From assembly GCA_016936395.1 (NCBI GenBank), contig JAFGXY010000055.1, forward strand, positions 1-64,000: a DNA stretch of 64,000 nt, given 5' to 3'. The stretch is from Paracoccaceae bacterium. Lineage in GTDB: Bacteria > Pseudomonadota > Alphaproteobacteria > Rhodobacterales > Rhodobacteraceae. The translations under genes were made by a program, and so were the position numbers. The notes beneath the pieces were generated by a model. The model ran no database searches. It was not told the origin of the DNA and worked only from the letters and a program-made list of their open reading frames with translations. Shown in pieces: positions 41,351 to 51,777 of the stretch. Numbering within the stretch: the stretch's first letter is position 1; each line of letters begins with the position of its first letter.

Positions 41351-42186
41351 GCCGACAGAACCGCCCGGCGGGTGGCGTCATCGACCTGCGGTCGCTGGCC
41401 AAACCAGCGCTCAAACCCGGGGGCCGCCTGATGCAGCAACATGCCGAGCCCGTCCACAATCGTGCAGCCCTTTGCCTGGGCTTCGATCAGGAACTGCGTC
41501 ATCAGCGGCGTGTAGACCAGATCGGTGACCACGGCGCGCGGGTTCAGCCCATCCAGCGGCACCCGGAATTCCGGCTTGCCAGTCATGCCAAGCGAGGTGG
41601 TGTTGACCACTGTTGTGGCTCCGTCGAGCATGTTGGCGGCCTGCACCCATTCACTGACGATCACCTTGGCCCCGAAGTCGGAGCGCAACGCCTCGGCCCG
41701 CGGGCGGGTGCGGTTGGCGATGCTGATCTCGGGCACGCCGACCTCGATGAGCGCCGCGACGGTGGCCCGCGCGGCCCCACCAGCACCAAAGACCACGGCC
41801 GGACCGCTGCCGGGCTGCCAATGTGGCGCATTCTGGCGCAGGTTGGCGATCAGGCCTGCACCATCGGTGTTATCGGCCTGAATCCGGCCATCCTTGCGGA
41901 AGATCAGGGTGTTGGCAGCACCGATCAGGGCGGCGCGGTCGGTAACGACATCAGCGATCTGCAGGATCGCTTCTTTGTGCGGAATTGTGATGTTGACACC
42001 GACAAACCCCATCAGCGGAAGGGTCTGCAAGACATGGGCAAGGTCGGCTGGGGCGACATCAAGCGGCACGTAATGACCCTTTATCCCGTAGCGTTGCAGC
42101 CAGTAGCCATGCAGCGCCGGCGACCGGCTGTGCGCAATCGGGTGGCCGATGACACCGGCAAGGGGGATGCGGGGATGATCTGTCAT
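41347..42186 (-). CDS. aroE: Shikimate dehydrogenase
   Basis: [50 protein letters not shown]. Confidence 0.95.
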
Positions 42187-42776
42187 GTCGGGATGCTGCC
42201 TCTGTCGCCGAGATAGCCCAAAAGCGGCAAAAGGGGAAGTCCGAGCACAGTGAAGTAGTCGCCTCCAATGGCAGAAAACAATCGCACGCCTTCTTCCTCC
42301 AGCTTGTAACCGCCAAGGCTGTGGCAGATGCTGGACCAGTTGCGATCGACGTGATCCGACAAATAGGCGTCTGACAGCGGGCGCATGGTCAAGCGCGCCT
42401 CGCCAATATGACGCCAGATCGGGCGGGCCTGATGATACAGGACGGCGGCCGACAACAGAATGTGCGTCTGCCCGCGCAGGCGGTGCAGTTGTCCCAACGC
42501 ATCCGCCGGGCTTTCAGGCTTTGCCCAGACTTCACCCTTGAAGGCGAGAACCTGATCGCAGCCCAGAACAAGGTCATCGGGGCGGTTTTCTGCAACCTTG
42601 CGGGCTTTCATCTCGGCCAGAGTGTCCGCGATGTCTGATGGCGGCGCGGCCTCGGCCTGAAGTGCGCGACGAATGCTGTCTTCATCAACACGCGCGGGAA
42701 TGGACATGACCGGAACTCCCGCGGCTTGCAGAAGGCGGATGCGGATCTGCGATGCAGAGGCAAGGATCAGTGTCAT
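42183..42776 (-). CDS. Maf-family nucleoside triphosphate pyrophosphatase
   Basis: [18 protein letters not shown]...[18 protein letters not shown]. Confidence 0.94.
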
Positions 42777-43195
42777 CGGTCAGGAGAACCTTGTGGGTAA
42801 ACGCGGTTTGTTCTTGGGTTGGACTTTGTGGTCCCATGGGGGATGGGCGCTCAGGGTGCGTGCCTGCGGTGATATGTCAACACCGCCAAAACAGATATCC
42901 CGTTGTGTGCGAGCTTTGGGATGGGCTGTGGGCCACTGGATAATTGCGACAGTTCAAGGCGTGTCCTGTAAATGTTCAGTGACAGACGTCCTTATCGTTA
43001 CTTTTTGTTTTTATTACATTTAAATCAACTTATCCACTGAGGATGTGACTTTTCCACCAGGTTATCCAAGGCTCACGCAGTGTGGAGAAGTTCCGTGATC
43101 ATCGGGGATAGCCTGTTCTCCACAGGCCCTACATCATCATTCCCTTTCTCTTTCTCTTTTTATAAAGAAGGAGCCAAACGAAAGGTAGGAATACG
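42777..43195. other. oriC: Candidate chromosomal replication origin (oriC)
   Basis: Intergenic between divergent maf and hemJ; cluster of DnaA-box-like 9-mers (TTATCCACT 43030-43038; TTCTCCACA rc 43081-43089 and fwd 43116-43124; TTACCCACA rc 42792-42800; weaker ones), AT-rich tract 43000-43030, parAB about 6 kb away. Confidence 0.75.
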
Positions 43196-43645
43196 ATGGG
43201 CGGTTATCTGGCAGAGTGGTATCCTTGGATCAAATCGATGCATGTGGTGTCAGTGTTGGCCTGGATGGCAGGACTGTTCTATCTGCCACGGTTGTTTGTA
43301 TATCACGTCGAGGTCGTCGAGACGGGCAGTGGCACGGATGAGCTGTTTCAGACAATGGAACGGCGGTTGTTGCAGGCGATCATGAACCCGGCGATGATCT
43401 CGACCTGGATATTCGGGCTGGCCTTGGTGTTCACTCCGGGGATTGTGGACTGGTCGGCGGTATGGCCCTGGCTGAAGGGCGCTGCGATCCTGGCGATGAC
43501 CTGGTTTCACATGTGGCTTGGAGGGCGCCGGAAAGACTTTGTCGCGGCAAGCAACACGCGCAGCGGACGAAGCTATCGGATGATGAACGAACTGCCCACT
43601 GTCTTGATGCTGGTCATCGTATTCTCGGTGATTGTGAAGTTCTGA
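43196..43645 (+). CDS. hemJ: Protoporphyrinogen oxidase HemJ
   Basis: [27 protein letters not shown]...[15 protein letters not shown]. Confidence 0.92.
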
Positions 43646-43766
43646 TTTCTTGACTTTTGTCGGGGCTGGGCCTAATGCGGTTTCGCTGAGGCCGGCCGGC
43701 CCATGTCTTCCCCCTGATAATTTTGTGCAGACCCTGCGTGCAGCGGGGCATGTCAAGGATAATTCG

Positions 43767-45038
43767 ATGACCGTTGAACGCTTGAACCTGTCTGATCTGA
43801 AAGCCAAGACACCAGCCGATCTGCTGGCGATGGCGGAGGAGTGGGAGATCGAGAACGCGCCCAGCATGCGTAAGGGCGAGATGATGTTCCAGATTTTGAA
43901 GGAGCATGCCGAGGAAGGTTTCGAGATCGGTGGCGATGGTGTCCTGGAATGTCTGCAGGACGGGTTCGGGTTTCTGCGCAGCCCATCGGCCAATTATCTG
44001 CCTGGCCCGGATGATATTTATGTCAGCCCCGAGATGATTCGGCAGTTTTCCCTGCGCACAGGCGATTCGATTGAAGGTGTTATTCAGGCACCGCGCGAAA
44101 ATGAGCGCTACTTCAGTCTGGTTAAGGCGACAAAGATCAACTTCGACGATCCGGAACGGGCCCGGCACAAGGTGCATTTTGATAACCTGACGCCGCTTTA
44201 CCCTGATGAGCGATTGAAGATGGAGGTTGAAGATCCGACCGTGAAGGACCGATCGGCGCGGATCATTGATCTGGTCTGTCCGATCGGCAAAGGCCAAAGG
44301 GCGCTGATCGTGGCGCCGCCGCGGACCGGCAAGACGGTGCTGTTGCAAAACATCGCCCATTCGGTGGCGACCAACCACCCAGAGTGTTATCTGATCGTGT
44401 TGCTGATTGATGAACGGCCTGAAGAAGTGACAGACATGCAGCGCAGCGTCAGAGGTGAGGTTGTGTCGTCGACCTTTGACGAGCCGGCAACCCGGCACGT
44501 GGCGGTTGCCGAGATGGTGATCGAGAAGGCTAAACGGTTGGTAGAGCACAAGCGCGATGTGGTCATCTTGCTGGATTCGATCACGCGTCTGGGTCGCGCC
44601 TTCAACACGGTGGTTCCGTCCTCGGGGAAAGTGTTGACGGGGGGCGTGGATGCGAATGCCTTGCAGCGGCCCAAGCGGTTCTTTGGGGCCGCGCGCAACA
44701 TTGAAGAAGGGGGATCGTTGACCATTATCGCCACGGCCTTGATCGATACCGGCAGCCGGATGGACGAAGTGATCTTTGAAGAATTCAAGGGAACCGGGAA
44801 CAGCGAGATCGTGCTGGACCGCAAGGTGGCCGACAAGCGCGTGTTCCCGGCGATTGATATTCTGAAGTCGGGGACGCGGAAGGAAGATCTGCTGGTTGAA
44901 AAGACCGATTTGCAGAAAACCTATGTCTTGCGGCGGATTCTGAACCCGATGGGAACGACAGACGCAATCGAGTTCCTGATCTCGAAGCTGAAGCAGACCA
45001 AGTCGAATTCGGAATTCTTCGAATCGATGAACACCTGA
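43767..45038 (+). CDS. rho: Transcription termination factor Rho
   Basis: [46 protein letters not shown]. Confidence 0.97.
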
Positions 45039-45068
45039 TCGCGCGAAACGGTGTGAGCGTGGCCAATC

Positions 45069-46355
45069 ATGACTGAGACAATTTTCGCGCTGGCCACCGC
45101 GCGGGGCAAGGCGGGTATTGCGGTCATTCGCGTATCCGGTCCGCGCGCCTTGGCTGCCGTGACGTCGCTTGGGGCTGTGAACCTTGAGCCACGCCGGGCA
45201 GCCTTGCGACGGCTGATGCTGGGGGATGACGTTCTGGACGAGGCCCTTGTGTTGTTCTTTCCGAGGGGTGCAAGTTTTACCGGCGAAGAGAGCGTTGAAA
45301 TTCAAGCGCATGGCAGTGTGTCGGTGGTTGCTGCCTTGCTGTCGGCACTTGGGGCAATGCCAGACCTTCGCATGGCAGAGCCGGGTGAGTTTACCCGTCG
45401 TGCGCTTGAAAACGGCAGGCTGGATCTGACGCAGGTCGAAGGGCTTGCCGATCTGATTGATGCGGAAACCGAAAGTCAGCGCAAACAGGCGCAAAGGGTG
45501 TTGTCGGGCGCTTTGGGTGCGCGGGTCGATAGCTGGCGGCAAGATTTGATCCGTGCGGCGGCGCTGATTGAAGCCTCGATTGATTTTGTCGACGAAGACG
45601 TGCCGGTTGACGTGACCCCTGAGGTGGGGAGGGTGATTGACCGGTTGATGGCTGCGTTCCGATCAGAGCTGGATGCTGGAAAGATTGCAGAGCGCATAAG
45701 GGTTGGCTTTGAAGTTGCCATAATTGGCAGCCCGAACGTGGGTAAATCAAGCCTTCTCAATGCATTAGCTGGTAGAGAGGCGGCGATCACCTCGGCAATC
45801 GCAGGCACGACCCGCGATGTGATCGAGGTCAGAATGGACATTGGTGGCTTTGCTGTCACCTTGCTGGATACGGCTGGTTTGCGTGAGACCGAGGATGAGA
45901 TCGAGCAGCTGGGTATTGCGCGCGCGCGCGAACGGGCTTTGGCGGCGGACCTGCGGATTGTCCTGTTGGATCCACAGGAAGAACGACCGCAGCAAGGCGA
46001 GGACGATCATGACATTGTGGTGTGGTCAAAGGCGGATCTGAGTCCAGGGCCGGCGGCAATATCCAGCAAAACCGGGGTCGGTTTGGATTGGCTGTTGGCG
46101 GAAGTCGAGCGGCGTTTGTCGGGCATGAATGCAAACAGCGGGCTGATCGTCAGAGAGCGACACCGTATCGCGCTGATGGGTGCATTTCAGGCTTTGGAAC
46201 TGGCGCAACGGTCGGTTACAAGTCATACTCCGGCATTGGAATTGGTAGCTGCCGATCTGAGAAGTGCGCTGTCACATCTAGAGTTGCTGGTCGGCAAGGT
46301 GCATGTCGAAGTGTTGCTGGACGAAATCTTCGCCAGTTTCTGTATCGGAAAGTAG
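45069..46355 (+). CDS. mnmE: tRNA modification GTPase MnmE
   Basis: [46 protein letters not shown]-terminal FCIGK. Confidence 0.97.
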
Positions 46356-46357
46356 GG

Positions 46358-48232
46358 GTGTTTCACGTGAAACATTTTGATGTGGTCGTGATCGGTGGTG
46401 GCCATGCCGGAACCGAAGCGGCTGCCGCGGCAGCGCGCATTGGCGCATCGGTCGCCTTGGTCACGCAGAATGCGCAGAAGATTGGCGTAATGTCCTGTAA
46501 TCCCGCTATCGGCGGGCTTGGAAAGGGTCATCTTGTCAGGGAAATTGATGCACTAGACGGCATTATGGCCAAGGCGGCAGATGACGCAGGTATTCAGTTT
46601 CGTTTGCTGAACCGTCGGAAAGGGCCGGCGGTGCAAGGACCAAGAGCACAGGCGGACCGGGAAATTTACCGACACTCTGTGCAGCATTACTTGAGCCTTC
46701 ATCGAAATAATCGGATCGTGGAAGGCGAAGTGGTCGACATAACGATGCAGGGTTATTCCGTCACCGGGGTGGTTTTGGCAAATGACCAGCGCATTCAAGC
46801 AAACGCTGTTGTCTTGACGGCAGGAACCTTTCTGAACGGTGTCATTCACGTAGGTGCAGAGACCTCACAAGGTGGAAGGCTGGGTGACAGTCCGTCAGTT
46901 CGGCTGGGCGCGATGTTGAGAGATCTGGGTCTGGCGCAAGGCCGTCTGAAAACGGGAACGCCCCCAAGATTGGATGGAAGAACGATTGCTTGGCATCGCA
47001 TCGATCGCCAAGATGGTGATGACGTCCCCACAATGTTTTCGTTCTTGAGCGAAGGCCCCAAGGCGCGGCAAATCGCTTGCGGTATCACGCACACGAATGA
47101 GGTGACCCATGCGATCATTCGAAAGAACCTTGGCAGATCCGCTCTGTATGGCGGAAGCATAGAGGGCGTTGGTCCCCGATACTGCCCGTCGATTGAAGAC
47201 AAGGTGGTGCGATTTTCTGAAAAGCTCTCGCATCAGGTTTTTCTTGAACCGGAAGGGCTGACCAGCGACGTGGTCTACCCCAATGGCATCTCCTCATCCT
47301 TGCCCATCGATGTGCAATCCGATTATGTGCGGAGCATCACCGGGCTGGAGGATGCAACAATCCTGCAACCGGGTTATGCCATCGAATATGATTTCTTCGA
47401 TCCACGTGGCATGAGGTCATCGTTGGAGCGTAAGGAAATTGCCGGTCTGTTTTTCGCGGGTCAGATCAACGGAACGACCGGATACGAGGAGGCTGCTGCG
47501 CAAGGCCTTGTTGCCGGGCTAAATGCAGCGCGGAGCGCTCTTGGAAAAGACCCCGTGCATTTTCATCGGTCAGAAAGCTATATCGGGGTGCTGATCGACG
47601 ATTTGATTTTGCGCGGTGTAACGGAGCCATATCGGATGTTCACGTCGCGGGCAGAATATCGGTTGCATTTGCGTGCAGATAACGCCGACCAGAGATTGAC
47701 GGAACTGGGTATAACCGTCGGACTCGTGGAGGCGGACCGAGCGTTGAAGTATCGTGAAAAGGCCGAAAAGCTTCAATCTGCACGCTCCATGTTAGCGGCC
47801 CGCATTTTTTCGAATAGGGATCTGCGGGACAGCGGTGTTACAGTCAGTGCGGATGGCGCGTTGCGGGATGGCTTTGAGGTTATCGGCGCGTTCAATCTGG
47901 AGCCATCAGAGTGTGAGCGCCTTCTTCCCGAATTGGGCCTGTTTGACCCCGATATTCGAACTCAAATATATAGCGACGCCTTGTACAGCCGCTACCTGGA
48001 TCGGCAGCGTGCCGTAATCGAGCATCTTCGTAAAGACGAACAGCTTCCGATTCCGTCAAGCTTTGACTACGCCGGCCTCTCTGGGCTGTCGTCTGAGCTG
48101 ACGGCCAAACTGCAACGAATCATGCCGTCCAACCTAGCTCAGGCGGCGCAAATCGAGGGCATGACGCCATCGGCCATGGCGTTGCTTCATGCCAAGATAA
48201 AGCGTGCCGGCGCTTCAAATATTCGGGCGTGA
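46358..48232 (+). CDS. mnmG: tRNA modification enzyme MnmG (GidA)
   Basis: GTG start gives [51 protein letters not shown]. Confidence 0.97.
46359..46374. promoter_or_regulatory. parS: parS site, perfect TGTTTCACGTGAAACA
   Basis: Exact 16-bp consensus palindrome. Confidence 0.95.
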
Positions 48233-48235
48233 CCT

Positions 48236-48856
48236 TTGGATTCATTGTTCACACAGCTGAATGTTTCACGTGAAACGGCGGAAATGCTCGACGCCTACAA
48301 GGCGATTGTCTTGCGGTGGAACAGAGCAATTAACCTCATATCGGAAAGAAGTGCAAAAGATATTGATCGACGCCACATTGCAGACTCCCTTCAACTCTGT
48401 CCCCTGATCGTACGACCTATAGAGCGTTGGTGCGACATTGGCAGCGGAGCGGGCTTCCCCGGAATGGTGGTGGCGATCTACTCTCACACTATGGGCAAGC
48501 CTCTGGATATGCATTTGGTCGAAGTTGACGCCCGAAAGGCAGTCTTTCTGAGAGAGGCGTCGCGGCAGTTGGGGCTGAAGGTGACGGTCCACAACAAAAG
48601 GGTTGAAGATTTACCACCACTGCACTGCGATGTGGTGTCAGCGCGGGCATTGGCACCGCTGGCAACGTTGTGCAGCATGGCAAGCCCACATCTTGCATCC
48701 GCTGGAATATGCGTCTTTCCGAAGGGCGCCAGCTATCGTGAAGAGGTTAGATCGGCGAAGGCAGAATGGAATTTCAGCCTCGAGGCCATTCCCAGTCAAA
48801 CGGATGAGAACGCGGTCATATTGTTGTTGAAGGAGGTATCGCGTGTCACCACTTGA
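48236..48856 (+). CDS. rsmG: 16S rRNA (guanine527-N7)-methyltransferase RsmG
   Basis: LNVSRETAEMLDAYKAIVLRWNRAINLIS, WCDIGSGAGFPGMV. Confidence 0.95.
   Translation: MDSLFTQLNVSRETAEMLDAYKAIVLRWNRAINLISERSAKDIDRRHIADSLQLCPLIVRPIERWCDIGSGAGFPGMVVAIYSHTMGKPLDMHLVEVDARKAVFLREASRQLGLKVTVHNKRVEDLPPLHCDVVSARALAPLATLCSMASPHLASAGICVFPKGASYREEVRSAKAEWNFSLEAIPSQTDENAVILLLKEVSRVTT
48262..48277. promoter_or_regulatory. parS: parS site, TGTTTCACGTGAAACG (15/16)
   Basis: One mismatch to consensus, inside rsmG. Confidence 0.92.
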
Positions 48857-49679
48857 GGGCCGGAAGGCAGTTCGAATCATTGCGGTCGCGAACCAAAAAG
48901 GTGGCGTGGGCAAAACGACCACAACAATCAACGTCGCTGCCGCCTTCGCCGAGATGGGGTATCGGACGCTGGTCATTGACATGGACCCGCAGGGCAATGC
49001 ATCGACTGGTTTGGGCGTGGGGGCCGAAAAGCGCGGAAAAACCAGTTACGACCTCTTGTTGGAAAAGGCCCATCTGGCCGAGCTGATTCAACAATCCTCT
49101 GTCCCCAACATTCTGGTTTGTCCAGCCAACGCAGATTTGTCCTCCGCTGATATAGAGCTCGTGGCGAGCGAGAAGCGATCCTTTTTGCTGAAAGATGCGC
49201 TCAACGATCCGACTTTTGCCGATCTTGGCTTTGACTTCGTGCTCATAGACTGCCCTCCCTCTTTGTCCCTTCTGACCGTCAACGCGCTCGTTGCGGCACA
49301 CTCGGTGCTTGTTCCCCTTCAAAGCGAGTTCTTTGCGCTTGAGGGCCTGTCCCAGTTGATGTTGACCGTGCGTGATATCCGCAAGCGGGCCAATCCTGGC
49401 CTTCGGATTGAAGGAGTCGCTGTCACAATGACTGACAACAGAAATCGTCTGTCGCTACAGGTTGAGGCGGATGCCCGCCAAAACTTGGGAGAGCTGGTAT
49501 TTGCGACGACCATTCCGAGAAATGTGCGCGTGTCCGAAGCTCCGTCTTATGCAATGCCAGTCTTGCAATATGAACCGACGTCAAAAGGTGCAGAGGCCTA
49601 TCGCAAGCTTGCCCTGGAAATCATCGCACGCAAACCGGCAGTCCGTGCCACCAAGCGGGAAACACTCGATCATGGATAA
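48843..49679 (+). CDS. parA: Chromosome partitioning ATPase ParA
   Basis: IIAVANQKGGVGKTTTTINVAAAFAEMGYRTLVIDMDPQGNAS. Confidence 0.97.
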   Translation: MSPLEGRKAVRIIAVANQKGGVGKTTTTINVAAAFAEMGYRTLVIDMDPQGNASTGLGVGAEKRGKTSYDLLLEKAHLAELIQQSSVPNILVCPANADLSSADIELVASEKRSFLLKDALNDPTFADLGFDFVLIDCPPSLSLLTVNALVAAHSVLVPLQSEFFALEGLSQLMLTVRDIRKRANPGLRIEGVAVTMTDNRNRLSLQVEADARQNLGELVFATTIPRNVRVSEAPSYAMPVLQYEPTSKGAEAYRKLALEIIARKPAVRATKRETLDHG

Positions 49680-50589
49680 GAAACTGGAACGTCGAGGTCT
49701 TGGGCGTGGGCTGTCAGCCCTGATGTCGGATGTCAATCTGGGGTCAAACGAGGTTGCAGACTCACCGCAGAGGTTCCCGGCGGCAGACCTGATGATTGCT
49801 GTCGAGCGGATTCGTCCGAATCCAAAGCAACCAAGGCGGGACTTTGATCAGGCGGCCTTGGAAGAGTTGGCAGGCTCAATACGCACAAAAGGTATTATCC
49901 AGCCAATAATCGTGCGTCCAACCGCAGATGATGGCGATTTTGAGATCGTGGCTGGCGAAAGGCGTTGGCGCGCGGCCCAACTGGCACAGTTGCATCAAGT
50001 GCCGGTGGTCGTTCGGTCCTTTTCCGACGCCGAGATGCTGGAAATAGCGATTATCGAAAATATTCAGCGCGCCGATCTGAATGCTGTCGAAGAAGCGTTA
50101 GGTTTCAAGCAGTTGATGGAAAACTTTGGTCATACTCAGGAAAAGTTGGCCGACGCTCTGTCGAAAAGCAGATCGCATATCGCCAACACTTTGCGCCTTT
50201 TGTCGCTGCCTGACGACGTTCTGCAGATGATCCGCTCAGGAAAACTGACTGCGGGCCACGCGCGTGCGTTGATTGGCGCCTCAGACCCCGTTGCCTTGGC
50301 GGCAAAGGTTATTGGTGCCGGTCTGTCTGTGCGCGAAACGGAAAAGCTGGCGAAGCGTGCCATGCAGAAGCCAGACAGAAGCAATTCGCGGGCACGGGAG
50401 ACGGAAAAAGATGCTGACACGCGCGCGATAGAGGCAGATCTGAGCGCCAATTTGGGGATGAGTGTGACGATTGACCACGATCCAGCAGGCGAAGGCGGCT
50501 TCATCAAGGTCCGTTACCGAACACTGGGGCAGCTTGATATGTTGTGTCAGATGCTGTCCGTCATCCCGCGCGACTTCAAGGCAGACTGA
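49672..50589 (+). CDS. parB: Chromosome partitioning protein ParB
   Basis: RGLGRGLSALMSD, IRPNPKQPRRDFDQAALEELAGSI, IVAGERRWRAAQLA. Confidence 0.97.
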   Translation: MDKKLERRGLGRGLSALMSDVNLGSNEVADSPQRFPAADLMIAVERIRPNPKQPRRDFDQAALEELAGSIRTKGIIQPIIVRPTADDGDFEIVAGERRWRAAQLAQLHQVPVVVRSFSDAEMLEIAIIENIQRADLNAVEEALGFKQLMENFGHTQEKLADALSKSRSHIANTLRLLSLPDDVLQMIRSGKLTAGHARALIGASDPVALAAKVIGAGLSVRETEKLAKRAMQKPDRSNSRARETEKDADTRAIEADLSANLGMSVTIDHDPAGEGGFIKVRYRTLGQLDMLCQMLSVIPRDFKAD

Positions 50590-50598
50590 GGTGTTGCT

Positions 50599-51777
50599 CT
50601 AGTCCGCCAGATGTCGGATCACGCTGTTCAGCACAAGGCGCCCCTGCACACTGGTTTTCAGGCGTGTGCCACATAGTTGTAGAAGGCCGAGGTCACTCAA
50701 TTCGGTGATCTTTCGGGCGTCAATCGTCTTGCCGGTGATGGTTTCGTACATTTCGACATCAAGGCCTGACGATACCCGCAATCCCATGACCATCAACTCA
50801 CGGCCCTGATCCTCGGCTGTAAGGCTCTCGCGCGGGTCTTCGCCATTTTTCGTCTTTGCCACTCGGTCCAGCCATGTGCCGGGCGATGCAGGGCAAAATG
50901 TTGCAAATCTGGGTCCTTGCCGCAAGGTCAGCCGACCATGGGCCCCAGGTCCGATGCCCAAATAGTCACCACCGCGCCAATAGACCATGTTGTGCCGCGA
51001 GAAGGACTGCTCTCGCGCATGATTGGAAACCTCGTAGGCAGGAAGGCCGACAGCATTGCAAAGATCTTGCGTCGCCAGGTACATGTCGGCGGAAAGGCCT
51101 TCGTCGGGCAAGCCACGCAACTGCCCACGGGCATGGCGTGCTCCGAACACGGTTTCTGGCTCTACGGTCAGTTGATAAAGCGACAGGTGGTCGCCCGCTA
51201 TGTCCAAAGCGGCCGAAAGTTCGCCTTGCCAGTCGCCCAGTGACTGATCTTGCCGGGCATAAATCAGGTCAAAGCTGGTGCGATCAAAGATCTTTTGGCC
51301 CAAGGCAATGGCCGACCGGGCTTCCGCTGCATCGTGCATGCGGCCAAGCCGACGCAGATCGCGGTCATTCAAGGCCTGCACCCCGATCGAGACCCGGTTC
51401 ACGCCCGCAGCTCGATACCCAGCAAAGCGATTCGCTTCGACCGAGGTCGGGTTGGCCTCCAGTGTGATCTCGATGTCATTCGCCGGCGTCCACAGGCGCG
51501 TTGCCTCATCAACAATCGCAGCGACCAAGGATGGCATCATCAACGATGGTGTCCCGCCCCCGAAAAAGACGCTTTGCAAAACGCGCCCCTCCGTTTCAAG
51601 GGCGACCCGCCGCAGCTCCGACAGATAGGACTGCTGCCACACTGCCTGATCAACAGAGGATGAGACATGGCTGTTGAAGTCGCAATATGGGCATTTTGAC
51701 TGGCAGAACGGCCAATGCACATAAAGCGCAAAGCCGGCCTGCTGCCACCGCTCCAACGATACAGGGGTCTCGGTCAT
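50599..51777 (-). CDS. hemW: Radical SAM heme chaperone HemW
   Basis: FALYVHWPFCQSKCPYCDFNSH, SVFFGGGTPSLM, RVSIGVQALNDRDLRRLGR. Confidence 0.95.
   Translation of the reverse strand: MTETPVSLERWQQAGFALYVHWPFCQSKCPYCDFNSHVSSSVDQAVWQQSYLSELRRVALETEGRVLQSVFFGGGTPSLMMPSLVAAIVDEATRLWTPANDIEITLEANPTSVEANRFAGYRAAGVNRVSIGVQALNDRDLRRLGRMHDAAEARSAIALGQKIFDRTSFDLIYARQDQSLGDWQGELSAALDIAGDHLSLYQLTVEPETVFGARHARGQLRGLPDEGLSADMYLATQDLCNAVGLPAYEVSNHAREQSFSRHNMVYWRGGDYLGIGPGAHGRLTLRQGPRFATFCPASPGTWLDRVAKTKNGEDPRESLTAEDQGRELMVMGLRVSSGLDVEMYETITGKTIDARKITELSDLGLLQLCGTRLKTSVQGRLVLNSVIRHLAD

Follow-up and report, generated by a model that had tools for sequence, protein, structure and literature searches.

The Caulobacter chromosomal origin, Cori, is located between hemE and the COG1806/DUF299 gene and has five sites for CtrA and one for IHF; CtrA sites are missing from some of the other origins predicted in Alphaproteobacteria (PMC1914354). 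For Rhodobacteraceae, Kopejtka et al. (2019, PMC6699656) predicted oriCs from GC disparity, DnaA boxes, and nearness to parAB, and the passages of that paper drawn on here hold no description of flanking genes or of an unwinding module. The basal unwinding system is laid out as a DnaA box, a spacer, and DnaA-trios, the commonest published trio being 3'-GAT-5', which is not an absolute requirement (Pelliciari et al. 2021, PMC8287927). We scrutinized a 64-kb stretch of DNA (the window) from a Rhodobacteraceae genome that is, unlike the closed genomes of Kopejtka et al. from the same family, a 77-contig draft (3.07 Mb scanned, 92% complete). Judged from sequence, the intergenic gap between maf and hemJ at 42777-43195 is very probably a chromosomal oriC of the Cori type (probability roughly 0.94). 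Origins of this type, bordered by hemE and COG1806, were already known, and the maf/hemJ gap would add another. The gap and its neighborhood comprise the following features.

42777-43195, no strand: predicted oriC, intergenic between maf and hemJ, 419 bp, 48% GC
42183-42776, minus strand: maf, Maf-like nucleotide pyrophosphatase, left flank; no profile model reached its cut-off, the best match being PRK02478 at 190 bits
43196-43645, plus strand: hemJ, protoporphyrinogen oxidase, right flank (TIGR00701, 136.5 bits, slightly below the cut-off of 138)
46359-46374, no strand: parS, perfect palindrome TGTTTCACGTGAAACA
48262-48277, no strand: second parS, one mismatch
48843-49679, plus strand: parA (comparison frame begins at 48870)
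49690-50589, plus strand: parB, inside the open frame 49462-50589

The first-pass annotation had described a 419-bp gap between divergent genes, with parAB and parS to its right and with neither hemE nor DUF299 between maf and hemJ, and all of this was confirmed. On the left, dnaQ-coaE-aroE-maf are directed away from the gap, with secB farther out; on the right, hemJ-rho-mnmE-mnmG-rsmG-parA-parB are likewise directed away. GC content is 48% in the gap versus 62% in the window. The stretch from hemJ to parB (43001-51000) is also low in GC, at ~55 to 58%, clearly below most other window DNA (~60 to 67%).

To place the gap relative to Cori, we followed PF03618 (DUF299/COG1806, ppsR), which 8 of the 151 family genomes carry and which did not turn up in the source genome, a 92% complete draft. 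PF03618 and its neighbor are divergently arranged in all eight, with ~420 to 475 bp separating it from hemJ in five (G030, G171, G016, G093, and G109) and from hemE in three (G129, G019, and G090). Among loci read from the class's other families, almost every one has hemE facing PF03618. Relative G123 has lost ppsR and retained hemE, giving the order maf / gap / hemE-hemJ, and the source genome's own hemE sits on a separate contig (C45). Because PF03618 faces hemE or hemJ across the gap, and Cori lies between hemE and COG1806, the maf/hemJ gap is, on this comparison of gene order, the positional homolog of Cori once ppsR had been lost and hemE had moved. The earlier proposal of an origin in a Caulobacter-type neighborhood thus stands. 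Complete relative G129 (C1:2736237-2738888) still has the complete ancestral arrangement (maf-ppsR / gap / hemE-hemJ) and is a useful historical intermediate.

Like Cori, the locus is a homologous chromosomal gap of ~400 bp with DnaA boxes, an AT-rich tract, and a common neighborhood, and COG1806/DUF299 and hemE border the gap in related genomes that retain them. Unlike Cori, it has lost DUF299, its hemE has moved, and 42777-43195 contains no CtrA (TTAA-N7-TTAA) or IHF consensus site; these were present in 4/80 and 7/80 family gaps, respectively. GANTC (CcrM) sites were also absent from 42777-43195, with at least one found in 55/80 gaps. Our claim is limited to positional homology with Cori and to oriC function; CtrA control is not part of it.

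The gap contains seven DnaA-box-like sites, listed here with the number of species, among 80 aligned gaps, keeping a box of up to two mismatches at the homologous slot.

42792-42800, minus strand: DnaA box TTACCCACA, one mismatch, maf-side; 69/80
42935-42943, minus strand: weak DnaA-box-like site TTATCCAGT, two mismatches; slot not often conserved
43030-43038, plus strand: DnaA box TTATCCACT, one mismatch, beside the AT tract; only 11/80
43050-43058, plus strand: weak DnaA box TTTTCCACC, two mismatches; 22/80
43062-43070, plus strand: weak DnaA box TTATCCAAG, two mismatches; 40/80
43081-43089, minus strand: DnaA box TTCTCCACA, one mismatch, inverted partner of the 43116 box; 65/80
43116-43124, plus strand: DnaA box TTCTCCACA, one mismatch, where DnaA would load in the predicted unwinding module; 63/80

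All four one-mismatch boxes claimed from the first inspection of the DNA were found where it had placed them, as were the three weaker sites, each with two mismatches. Four one-mismatch boxes compare with a mean expectation of 0.12, and none of 2000 dinucleotide shuffles gave as many as four; the whole-genome rate (217 one-mismatch sites in 3.07 Mb) corresponds to ~0.03 per 419 bp. No 419-bp stretch of the window equaled the site count of the gap, except those overlapping it. The gap has no perfect box, as is the case for 44/80 gaps (this one included). We considered whether sub-consensus boxes were a sign of an unusual lineage and dropped the idea, given the frequency of gaps without a perfect box and a DnaA helix-turn-helix that appeared ordinary by eye.

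The maf/hemJ gap recurs in 79 other Rhodobacteraceae contigs, picked by hemJ similarity as those carrying both maf and hemJ, at a length of 371 to 457 bp (median 416.5) and with boxes at corresponding places. Wherever these contigs are long enough, they show the order dnaQ-coaE-aroE-maf / gap / hemJ-rho-mnmE-mnmG-rsmG-parA-parB. The first-pass annotation had suspected a lineage-specific local order; the maf/hemJ order is real, but among relatives chosen in this way the sequences make it the rule in Rhodobacteraceae. The 80 aligned gaps together hold 575 boxes with up to two mismatches versus ~90 after shuffling, the most conserved slots being those at 42792, 43081, and 43116, the last of which is a perfect TTATCCACA in 13 of the 80 species. 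The inverted boxes at 43081 and 43116, the innermost conserved pair, lie at a spacing of exactly 35 bp in 43 of the 52 relatives where it could be measured, a rigidity that suggests a fixed DnaA-DnaA geometry.

Where the DNA would first open was assessed from duplex stability and from conservation on the hemJ side of the 43116 box, where the relevant elements are as follows.

43003-43033, no strand: least stable 30-bp tract of the window, the unwinding element first suggested; relatives median 73% AT, variable
43125-43129, no strand: GC-rich spacer GGCCC
43130-43141, no strand: period-3 element TACATCATCATT, DnaA-trio-like; complementary strand 3'-5' TAG-TAG-TAA
43139-43169, no strand: pyrimidine/AT-rich tract, ranking third among the window's 30-mers for low stability; relatives median 77% AT (10th to 90th percentile, 69 to 83%)

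In relatives, the module reads as a box, 4 to 5 GC-rich bases, CTAC, CA(A/T)-type repeats, CATC, and pyrimidines. The AT tract at 43000-43030, first put forward as the unwinding element, does contain the least stable 30-mer, but varies more in AT content among relatives; hence, the first DNA to melt is probably ~43139-43169, and the conserved module at 43116-43169 is the likelier site of unwinding. Applying the basal unwinding rule (no more than two mismatches in the box, a spacer of 16 bp or less, and three or more NAN trios; PMC8287927), we found the one-mismatch 43116 box followed by an 8-bp spacer and three NAN trios (top strand ATC ATC ATT). In the hemJ-side orientation, 56/80 gaps passed the rule versus 5 to 10 shuffled ones; since the poly-pyrimidine tract helps many gaps pass, conservation of the module outweighs this count. 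Class-wide, the rule was weakly enriched (9/27 gaps versus 2 to 4 shuffled). A fixed 22-mer from the module had no reach outside the family, and a box with CTAC/CTACC-like elements could be recognized by eye at the corresponding place across the class.

The module thus resembles the basal unwinding system in its box, 8-bp spacer, NAN trios (TAG TAG TAA), AT-rich tract, and inverted upstream box. It differs in that the commonest published trio is 3'-GAT-5', whereas the Rhodobacteraceae element consists mostly of top-strand CAW repeats (3'-GTW-5'), and some family members (e.g., L108) have a conserved element that departs from the NAN rule. Repeats of 3'-GAT-5' are absent here, where a single GAT (top-strand CTA) lies beside the spacer; two or more in-phase GAT trios occurred in 14/80 family gaps and 8/27 class gaps. 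From the box to its last A, the period-3 element is mostly 14 or 17 bp long, and its length followed a modulo-3 pattern in 20/31 cases after genus grouping (P = 0.0004), a pattern found post hoc, with no tree, and against a control spacing too rigid as a null. Rhodobacteraceae origins could conceivably use a divergent DnaA-trio, with CAW (3'-GTW-5') repeats after one 3'-GAT-5' and a length varying in three-base steps, an idea we regard as tentative and rather doubtful.

In many bacteria, oriC adjoins dnaA, so an origin elsewhere, for example at dnaA-dnaN, had to be weighed, with the maf/hemJ gap merely a conserved divergent promoter region. The first-pass annotation had looked to the GC-skew minimum to locate the origin. 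From 20 samples of 20 kb along each complete relative chromosome, with permutation P values, we found a sign change at hemJ in five of six (G143, P < 0.0002; G018, P = 0.0002; G129, P = 0.001; G123, P = 0.024; G132, P = 0.031); the sixth, G069, gave no usable skew. The source genome's own 110-kb contig showed no clean minimum at the gap and was uninformative; the skew evidence comes from its relatives. The best fit was within ~45 kb in G143 and roughly 60 to 440 kb off in G132 and G123, and because of these offsets the skew backs the region rather than the exact gap. Furthermore, dnaA lies 26 to 107 kb from hemJ in G123, G132, G143, and G087, where coarse skew alone cannot tell the two loci apart. 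In G129, by contrast, dnaA is 503 kb from hemJ and the skew favors hemJ (0.308 versus 0.117), as it also does in G143 (0.876 versus 0.774). The source genome's dnaA region (C16:70000-80000) has one one-mismatch box, within dnaA itself, and at most three weak boxes per 419 bp. Together with the homology of the gap to Cori, these data make an origin elsewhere highly improbable.

DnaA boxes occur at regulatory sites too. Among the genome sites listed, which give positions for the first 100 of the 217 one-mismatch sites and cover clusters on later contigs in part, a second, smaller cluster at C14:54473-54819 has one perfect and two one-mismatch boxes. It surrounds the start of a gene whose N-terminus resembles a helix-turn-helix, lies 3' of an MttB-like gene (both named by eye), and is possibly a DnaA-controlled promoter. 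Despite this further cluster beside a promoter region, it is less probable still that the boxes at 42777-43195 form a DnaA-titrating or DnaA-reactivating site, or DnaA-controlled maf/hemJ promoters, near but not at the initiation site, because the skew breaks at the locus and because gap, box slots, and module persist as the flanks change between ppsR and maf on the left and hemE and hemJ on the right. We had also considered the conserved CTAC..CATCAT stretch as a leader of hemJ and dropped this notion, since a like element precedes hemE in G123.

The reading of the maf/hemJ gap as a replication origin, as first proposed, is supported by its box cluster, the conservation of gap and box positions, homology with Cori, the nearby parABS, and the skew breaks in five relatives. 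That DnaA binds here, where exactly the DNA melts, that the helicase is loaded, and that the gap acts as an origin are all inferred from these sequence features. In the mechanism we propose, DnaA would bind an array of mostly sub-consensus boxes, spread from the inverted pair 43081/43116 onto the period-3 element at 43130-43141, and melt the pyrimidine/AT tract to ~43169, where the helicase would be loaded; ParABS, 3 to 7 kb rightward, would separate the newly made origins.

An origin at this position would fix the replication start and, with it, the replichore and gene-dosage layout of a draft genome in which skew is unusable. It would also provide a simple rule for the family, namely that the origin lies in the maf/hemJ gap, and an account of how the flanking genes came to differ from those in Caulobacter. 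As a conserved element, the period-3 module offers a testable opening site in a well-studied family and may represent a natural DnaA-trio variant. The possible divergent trio is the single feature that a specialist might follow up; if true, the family's DnaA, or its single-strand contacts, would read a different triplet.
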